Origin: Clostridia bacterium
GTDB lineage: Bacteria > Bacillota > Clostridia > Christensenellales > Aristaeellaceae
Assembly (NCBI GenBank): GCA_017429695.1
Contig: JAFROK010000038.1
Span: 1 to 55,029 of the forward strand
Direction: 5' to 3'
Length of the DNA: 55,029 nt
Of this stretch, positions 53,974 to 54,705 are shown one piece after another. The position numbers and the translations under genes are program-made. The notes under the pieces were generated by a model. The model worked only from the letters and a program-made list of their open reading frames with translations, made no database searches and was not told the DNA's origin. The stretch's first letter is position 1. Each line of letters starts with the position of its first letter.

Positions 53974-54003
53974 GAGACTGGGGGACTGCTCCCAGTCTCT
54001 TTT
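53974..54003 (+). terminator. Rho-independent terminator of the purine permease
   Basis: GAGACTGGG (53974-53982) and CCCAGTCTC (53991-53999) form a perfect 9-bp stem followed by TTTTC. Confidence 0.85.
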
Positions 54004-54437
54004 CAGATTGAACGGCTATGATATGATCCTAAAAACCGCACCGTATATGATCCGGAATGCTGACAACCGATACGGAGTGAAAATAAACCTCCCTATGTGG
54101 TAGGAACTACAAACTGTTGGGTACAGGGGTGTTATGAGCTAGTTCCTTATTTTACAAGGGTTCCGGCGATTCTGCCCTGCCGTTCAGCCGTACCCAAATA
54201 CTGTAAGCGCTTCTTCCAGACACACCATACATAAATGCGCAGTAAAATGCTCACATCACTCATCGATGTGAGCACAGACTGTAGACAAAGTCCGAGGCTA
54301 AGGTCTCGGATTTTGTCATATAAAAGTGCTGGAAAATCAATAAAATCAAAATACAGCGGGCGATTGTGGTATAAAAATGGCAGGACGAACTGTTCCAAAT
54401 GTCCAACTGGACTGGTAGGCCGAAGGTACGAAATTGT
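54004..54437. other. Gene-free stretch with several hairpins
   Basis: No credible intact gene. AGGAACTA/TAGTTCCT (54102-54109, 54140-54147) brackets 30 nt. GCTCACATC/GATGTGAGC (54249-54257, 54265-54273) is a perfect 9-bp hairpin. GACAAA-TCCGAG/CTCGGA-TTTGTC (54284-54317) is a longer stem. A minus-strand open frame ending at 54147 has a plausible C-terminal end (KKRLQYLGTAERQGRIAGTLVK) that I do not recognise; the rest of it is antisense of the tRNA-like gene. Codon usage and AT content differ from the rest of the window, suggesting mobile-element debris. Confidence 0.45.
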
Positions 54438-54613
54438 GGTGGCATGGCTCAGTCGGTAGAGCACATCGTTCACATCGATGGGGGAAAGCCGCCGAGGACC
54501 GCCGGTGACGGAAATCTCGTCGGCGGCTTTCTCATGCGAAACAAGCGATCTGCCCGGTGGGCAGTCGCGCCGATTGAGCATGCGGATCGTTGGTTCGAGT
54601 CCAACTGTCACCA
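54438..54613 (+). tRNA. tRNA-Val(CAC)-like gene with ~108-nt structured insertion in the variable region
   Basis: Acceptor GGTGGCA (54438-54444) pairs with TGTCACC (54606-54612) with one G-U. The D-arm is GCTC-AGTCGGTA-GAGC (54447-54462). The anticodon arm is CATCG-TTCACAT-CGATG (54464-54480) with U33, anticodon CAC and A37. The T-arm is GTTGG-TTCGAGT-CCAAC (54589-54605). The variable region, normally about 5 nt, spans 54481-54588. It contains an 11-bp perfect stem (54485-54495 with 54520-54530) and a GCGA-CTGCCC/GGGCAG-TCGC hairpin (54545-54568) enclosed by CATGC/GCATG (54533-54537, 54578-54582). Discriminator is A54613; CCA is not encoded. A terminator follows at once. It could be an active tRNA-like RNA or a tRNA carrying an unknown insertion. 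Confidence 0.6.
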
Positions 54614-54617
54614 CTTC

Positions 54618-54642
54618 CCTCCCAGATCGGGAGGTTTTTTTT
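54618..54642 (+). terminator. Rho-independent terminator of the tRNA-like gene
   Basis: CCTCCC (54618-54623), loop AGATC, GGGAGG (54629-54634), then T8. A clear intrinsic terminator only four bases after the discriminator base. Confidence 0.9.
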
Positions 54643-54705
54643 GTATAATCTGGTTTGTGTGATTGTGTAGGTTCCCGTCATACGACGGTTCGCCTGGATC
54701 ATAAA

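Follow-up and report, generated by a model that had tools for sequence, protein, structure and literature searches.

A tRNA-Val(CAC) gene interrupted by a dispersed hairpin repeat at an apparent integration hotspot in a genus of Clostridia

Close to one end of a 55,029-nt contig from a Clostridia bacterium (assembly GCA_017429695.1, contig JAFROK010000038.1; this whole stretch is called the window), a gene for tRNA-Val(CAC) carries in its variable region one copy of a ~107-bp dispersed non-coding repeat that is built from two compound hairpin modules, H1 and H2. We consider it likely that this gene is a supernumerary tRNA-Val(CAC) copy at an integration hotspot, with a hairpin-repeat copy that would have moved in between its variable loop and T-stem. 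Copies of the repeat are scattered across the genus and frequently stop at this same point of tRNA sequences, so small mobile DNA most likely produced the split tRNA as a by-product, and a new regulatory RNA is the less probable reading. The interrupted gene itself is probably a relic.

The interrupted tRNA-Val(CAC) gene

The original prediction for this locus, a tRNA-Val(CAC) with all four arms and extra sequence in its variable region, agrees with a covariance-model search. Using cmscan, positions 54438-54613 of the forward strand match the tRNA family RF00005 with 47 bits, above the family cut-off of 29, and the acceptor, D, anticodon (CAC) and T arms all align to the family model, leaving the surplus sequence in the variable region. 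The variable region of a tRNA is normally ~4-24 nt long; in the RF00005 alignment of this gene it exceeds 100 nt and so lies outside the range of functional tRNAs. Because the interrupted gene measures 176 nt and intact copies measure 73 nt, the net insert is 103 nt. The insert is thus long, as proposed, and slightly shorter than the ~108 nt first given.

The 5′ part of the tRNA (54438-54480, forward strand) comprises the acceptor 5′ strand, the D arm and the anticodon arm, and a segment covering it (54437-54483) shows 100% identity with intact genes such as the tRNA-Val(CAC) gene on contig 52 of the same genome (L035; the source genome is termed G000). The 3′ part (54587-54613, forward strand) supplies the end of the variable loop, the T arm, the acceptor 3′ strand and A73, with no CCA following; here positions 54584-54614 are 96.8% identical to the contig-52 gene. 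Since both tRNA parts match that gene and homologues of the insert occur in every genus genome searched, the locus is not a product of chance.

ARAGORN called no tRNA in the unspliced window, and it called tRNA-Val(CAC) in 62 of 63 spliced versions of the gene from which the insert had been cut out. An earlier splice test with narrower trims missed the gene and yielded one chance-like tRNA-Gln in L152; apart from the gene in the window, the wider test gave an antisense tRNA-Thr in L021 (1 of 63 variants). For genome annotation, it is a warning that a gene missed by ARAGORN still scores as a tRNA with a covariance model.

A segment immediately upstream (54379-54437, forward strand) is a leader that, by flank comparison, recurs 5′ of tRNA-Val(CAC) copies and in some genomes is arrayed with tRNA 5′ ends. 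Together with the tRNA 5′ part (54379-54483) it is 99% identical to L012, a locus of relative G033, and 90% identical to L017, and positions 54378-54483 are 92% identical to L015. Downstream, a terminator-like hairpin with a T run occupies 54618-54642 on the forward strand (the terminator scan places the site at 54618-54634), in accord with the adjacent terminator that had been reported. A diverged form of this site stands 3′ of an intact tRNA-Val(CAC) gene in relative G012. The contig ends 387 bases past the T run.

We also considered two known kinds of enlarged tRNA gene, both of which the original prediction had already set aside. The insert is far too long for a class II tRNA, and an Rfam search at E values up to 1 returned the tRNA and a sub-threshold CRISPR repeat match alone, with no group I or group II intron.

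The insert is a member of a dispersed repeat family

The repeat copy extends from 54481 to 54586 on the forward strand, with ends that are uncertain by a few nucleotides owing to G runs; our covariance model of the repeat, R1, matches 54478-54586 with 124.2 bits. Folding and covariation define its two modules, both on the forward strand. H1 (54482-54533) has a 14-bp outer stem, an internal loop and an inner stem, and H2 (54534-54585) has an outer stem ATGC/GCAT, an inner hairpin and the terminal sequence GCGG. The internal loop of H2 holds the conserved segments GAAAC and GATTGAG, and the core pattern of the repeat matches at 54538-54578. A two-hairpin insert had been foreseen, although with an outer stem of 11 bp in the first hairpin. 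Its predicted folding energy is -55.3 kcal/mol (z -4.6), which none of 200 shuffled sequences equalled.

When the locus was used to search 61 genomes (its own and 60 relatives), the insert was found to recur away from tRNA genes. Twenty-six copies were aligned with MAFFT and used to build R1, and in this alignment 22 of the 30 predicted pairs show two-sided changes in at least one sequence. In an alignment of 107 distinct copies, standard pairs fill 98.2% of the pair cells and 28 of 30 pairs have two-sided changes, values as high being reached in 0 of 500 shuffles; as this larger alignment was fitted to the model, its pair counts lean toward the model. The stems of RNA families normally drift through G-U pairs. 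Such pairs make up 24 of 3024 standard pairs (0.8%) in the repeat stems, versus 69 of 1029 (6.7%) in a comparison set of 48 distinct tRNAs from the fetched loci. The low frequency suggests that the hairpins may be maintained at the DNA level, although young copies could also show few G-U pairs.

A covariance-model search, a check put forward with the original prediction, detected the repeat in all 41 genus genomes searched, including G000, with 2-57 matches each at E values up to 0.01. The genome of the window contains 11 matches, and nine of these exceed 90 bits. We also drew 151 genomes from across the order and searched them with strict filters, scoring few candidates per genome; five had matches at E values up to 1e-5; three belong to the same genus and two, with weak matches, to the same family. 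A pattern scan of named genomes recovered 58 stretches, all titled Clostridia or Clostridiales bacterium and many of ruminant gut origin. The genus might perhaps be Aristaeella or one close to it.

Where tested, no Rfam family besides tRNA covers the repeat. The family was found nowhere in the parts of the surveyed literature that were accessible to us, and those parts likewise describe no hairpin repeats in the variable loops of bacterial tRNAs. We rejected an origin in known phage or plasmid DNA, since the 176-nt gene matched no phage record and the insert no plasmid record; three IMG/VR contigs (L281, L282 and L283) do contain the core pattern.

Several arrangements of copies were seen in passing. 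Tandem arrays of three to four copies occur at L079 (2123-2537), L107 (1-444) and L142 (1195-1609). Copies in L052, L053 and L144 are flanked by direct repeats of local hairpin sequence, and in L052 and L053 5S rRNA genes adjoin the repeat copies.

Repeat copies and tRNA genes

The query that yielded the first copies included the tRNA, so the 114 distinct copies collected contain disproportionately many that are linked to tRNAs. We therefore counted separately the 70 full-length matches from the pattern-scan loci. Five of these follow an intact same-strand tRNA at a distance of 77-101 nt, two lie near a tRNA in some other way, and for the remaining 63 no tRNA was called within 300 nt. Counting copies above ~60 bits in two one-contig genomes, we found a tRNA no more than 300 nt away for 3 of 26 in one and 5 of 28 in the other, where ~0.2 would be expected in each; one of the five overlaps a weak tRNA match. 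The preference of the repeat for tRNA genes is real but concerns a minority of its copies.

A pattern joining the repeat end to the T-loop, with 2-14 nt allowed between GCGG and GTTCGA, found 19 sites in 14 of 45 genus genomes, and a reversed control pattern found none. The gap is 7 nt at 13 sites, 6 nt at four and 5 nt at two, so the 3′ end of the repeat lies 1-3 nt before the T-stem at all 19 pattern-found sites. A full repeat (80-128 bits) is present at 15 of them. At the other four (L160, L162, L165 and the second site of L161) the match is weak, 24-31 bits, and the first part seems to be different. ARAGORN finds a tRNA in the 400 nt upstream of 10 of the 19 sites, and the tRNAs involved include Val, Ala, Met and Pro species.

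By reading, many tRNA-linked copies share one layout: an intact tRNA and its terminator are followed by an antisense piece of the 3′ half of that tRNA and a small palindrome, after which come the repeat and, in sense orientation, a T arm of that tRNA again. Inverted duplications of 3′ tRNA halves, in which an antisense arm precedes a sense arm that holds the repeat, stand 3′ of intact tRNAs in L010, L011, L014, L038, L040, L042 and others. Among all 114 distinct copies, the one in the window is alone in restoring a complete same-strand tRNA on removal.

We found no consistent target duplication at the repeat ends. Direct duplications of at least 14 nt and of variable length flank 18 of 102 copies, compared with 3 of 300 mismatched pairs, and four of the 18 cases are accounted for by tandem repeat copies. 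As read, the consensus shows no terminal inverted repeats, which together with a fixed-length target duplication would be expected of a MITE.

Interrupted tRNA genes in related genomes

Relatives carry both homologous inserts and other interrupted tRNA-Val(CAC) genes, so the insert is not the isolated case that would have spoken against the original prediction. Relative G062 has a 5′-truncated tRNA-Val(CAC) with the same type of insert as the window, differing at five positions and by one gap over ~152 bases; this near-identical interrupted 3′ part in a separate assembly led us to reject a one-off assembly error. Further 5′-truncated interrupted copies occur in G035 and G022. A full-length interrupted gene was found in three genomes, with a different insert in each (G000, G022 and G035 were scanned whole for tRNAs). 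The gene in G022 is 192 nt long (35.1 bits), holds a different insert in the same place, and has 5′ and 3′ halves that, by reading, look like two tRNA subtypes. The gene in G033 is 201 nt long (39.2 bits), with a third type of insert and, again by reading, changes in the T-loop and acceptor. R1 matched neither of these two inserts at E values up to 0.1, so their likeness to the repeat lies in place and hairpin nature, and kinship is unproven.

Other elements and one other tRNA are worth recording here. In L280 (contig C1 of G035, ~2381094-2381256, reverse strand) a tRNA-like gene with the apparent anticodon TAT has the repeat in its D-loop and adjoins a tRNA-Arg(TCT). A further element type, with a similar 3′ core (CCATTGA or CGATTGA ... 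CGG) and a different first hairpin, was seen in L238 (3511-3702), L028, L026 and L013. In G010, L277 holds a repeat-like 3′ end and, at 651-698, a match to the Rfam DUF3800-XI RNA (58.2 bits).

Recombination at the tRNA-Val(CAC) locus

Of 38 tRNA-Val(CAC) anticodon arms surveyed, in a set that includes several stretches chosen for holding an insert, 30 are uninterrupted, five have an insert, two diverge and one runs off its contig. The locus looks like a hotspot. In G020 and G022, tRNA-Val(CAC) copies are separated by a few kb that contain small gene sets; among the proteins tested from such sets are a MatE-family transporter and a protein that has a colicin-type nuclease domain. Partial tRNA duplicates lie beside intact copies in relatives, as expected of a tRNA attachment site, and halves of two tRNA subtypes appear, by reading, to be joined in G022 and L274. 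The left flank of the interrupted gene resembles G033 (99% over 105 nt) and the right flank G012 (85% over 126 nt). That the two flanks match different genomes supports recombination at the tRNA. Accordingly, instead of having received a direct insertion, the interrupted gene may join the 5′ part of a tRNA to a 3′ part that had been interrupted before.

In L238 and L242, tRNA copies border genes for a MatE transporter, an SH3-domain protein, a nuclease-domain protein and a deaminase-like protein below the cut-off, an arrangement that suggests a tRNA-based cassette array. L241 holds two tRNA matches 1.5 kb apart. In L012, L017, L019, L024 and the window (54379-54437), tRNA-Val(CAC) 5′ ends that break off behind the GGTAG of the D-loop are interspersed with short variable segments 5′ of the real gene, and these repeated 5′ ends resemble leftovers of repeated integration.

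Predicted folding and status of the gene

In an unmodified RNA model at 37°C, the 176-nt transcript has a free-fold energy of -90.5 kcal/mol, versus -82.9 kcal/mol with the cloverleaf enforced. This penalty of 7.6 kcal/mol stems from pairing between the 5′ half of the tRNA and the insert, in a predicted duplex of -39.0 kcal/mol. Thus, the best predicted fold destroys the cloverleaf, and we infer that the RNA, if transcribed, would mostly misfold and would not work as a tRNA.

A count of other tRNA-Val genes, also proposed at the outset, showed that G000 possesses the intact tRNA-Val(CAC) on contig 52, preceded by the promoter-like sequence TTGACC-17-TATAAT, as well as a tRNA-Val(TAC). With an intact copy and a good promoter elsewhere, and a best predicted fold that breaks its cloverleaf, the interrupted gene looks spare. 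There is no promoter match in the 410 nt before it, the sole forward-strand match in 54000-54700 being at 54000-54027. This makes a weak argument for spare status, since the stretch scanned at the intact tRNA-Val(CAC) of G012 likewise yields no promoter match on the strand of that gene. Both tRNA halves in the window are unmutated, which a decaying relic need not be; recent formation through recombination would explain this.

Discussion

We propose that the repeat is mobilized in DNA form, perhaps while single-stranded and folded into a hairpin, and that the boundary immediately 5′ of the T-arm hairpin is either a preferred target or a place where copies persist. The full-length interrupted gene would then be the outcome either of a direct insertion or of a recombination event joining the 5′ part of a tRNA to a 3′ part that was interrupted beforehand. 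Several results weigh against this reading: the promoter argument is weak, no mobilizing enzyme was identified, the repeat ends show no consistent target duplication, the tRNA halves are unmutated, most copies lie away from tRNAs, and splicing restored a complete same-strand tRNA for just 1 of 114 distinct copies. In addition, the uniform spacing at 19 of 19 sites, and the presence of unrelated inserts at one site, could reflect selection for a function there.

Such a function might reside in a two-piece tRNA. The insert could be tolerated, or excised in the manner of the intervening sequences of 23S rRNA, with RNase III-like trimming leaving a nicked yet working molecule. H1 offers a long stem, both tRNA halves in the window are intact, and the same site is occupied by three different inserts. 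The variable loop and D-loop are tRNA positions that tolerate extra sequence, and it is in the variable loop, and once in the D-loop (L280, G035), that inserts are found. We nonetheless regard a two-piece tRNA as unlikely: with an intact gene present it is unnecessary, the 5′ half would pair strongly with the insert, a promoter match close by is absent (as it also is for the intact G012 copy), and the G033 gene has changes in its T-loop and acceptor. Alternatively, tRNA and hairpin might together form a composite attachment site into which small gene cassettes integrate, in principle like the structured sites of integrons. The tRNA-Val(CAC) copies that flank small gene sets in G020 and G022, the partial and joined tRNA halves, the excess of flank duplications around the repeat (18 of 102 versus 3 of 300) and the scarcity of G-U pairs are all consistent with this idea, which is made quite improbable by the 63 of 70 copies that have no tRNA within 300 nt and by the occurrence of an insert in just 5 of the 38 anticodon arms; no recombinase was tied to the repeat.

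The original prediction had offered three explanations, of which the sequence comparisons favour the small mobile insert, given a repeat that is dispersed throughout the genus. For the other two, a novel tRNA-like regulatory RNA and a tRNA with an appended functional domain, we found no positive support, in view of the intact copy, a cloverleaf that is not the best fold and the few G-U pairs. The terminator-like site, the strong predicted fold (z -6.1) and the conserved unpaired positions of the repeat would fit a new tRNA-like regulatory RNA to which a structured domain is appended; yet the repeat is found at many places without a tRNA, its stems have few G-U pairs, and the full-length interrupted form, seen in three genomes with G000, G022 and G035 scanned whole for tRNAs, has a differing insert each time. 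We judge such an RNA highly improbable. A more general proposal, which we hold to be doubtful, is that hairpin elements alike in structure and diverse in sequence specifically colonize the junction of variable loop and T-stem, either as a component of a tRNA-based site for cassette recombination or as intervening sequences whose removal would leave the tRNA in two pieces. If true, either would link mobile hairpin DNA and bacterial tRNA genes in a new way.

The family is of interest as a strongly covarying repeat that is absent from Rfam, inhabits a genus of gut Clostridia and repeatedly ends at one exact tRNA position. It gives a natural setting in which to study how hairpin DNA moves when no enzyme is obvious, and what amount of additional structure can be accommodated in a tRNA gene of a bacterium.

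The nearest known kind of element is the REP-type palindromic repeat, from which the characteristic tag, the size and a neighbouring transposase are missing here. REP-type palindromes are described as short non-coding sequences with many copies per genome and covarying hairpins, sometimes inside genes (PMC3733652). Like them, the present repeat is dispersed and palindromic with covarying stems, but at ~107 bp with two compound hairpins it exceeds their 20-40 bp. As read, its consensus has neither GTAG nor CGTC at either end (CGTC occurs inside H1), and, unlike REP sequences, it is enriched at tRNA 3′ halves. Linkage to a Y1 (RAYT) transposase was rejected. Such genes do occur in these genomes, two of them in G000, but in the whole genomes of G022 and G035 none is bordered by the repeat, the closest of the copies listed being ~4 kb away in G022 and farther in G035, and the palindromes around one of the two G000 genes differ from the repeat. 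At a Y1 transposase locus of G000 (L054), positions 1040-1097 and 1961-2016 hold unrelated long palindromes (AGGGGACGGTTC...).

Three other systems share features with this locus. Rickettsia palindromic elements are ~100-bp palindromic repeats that insert into protein-coding genes; compared by description, they resemble the present repeat in length, palindromic nature and location within genes, and differ in being known from protein-coding genes of Rickettsia. The intervening sequences of bacterial 23S rRNA are ~100-nt hairpin inserts in a loop that are excised by RNase III. They share with our insert the form of a ~100-nt hairpin in a loop of a stable RNA, but the host there is rRNA rather than tRNA. 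Finally, integrative elements that target tRNA genes leave partial tRNA duplicates, joined halves and several tRNA copies bordering small gene sets. Each of these traces is seen at tRNA-Val(CAC), where the locus differs by adding to them a hairpin repeat at the tRNA.
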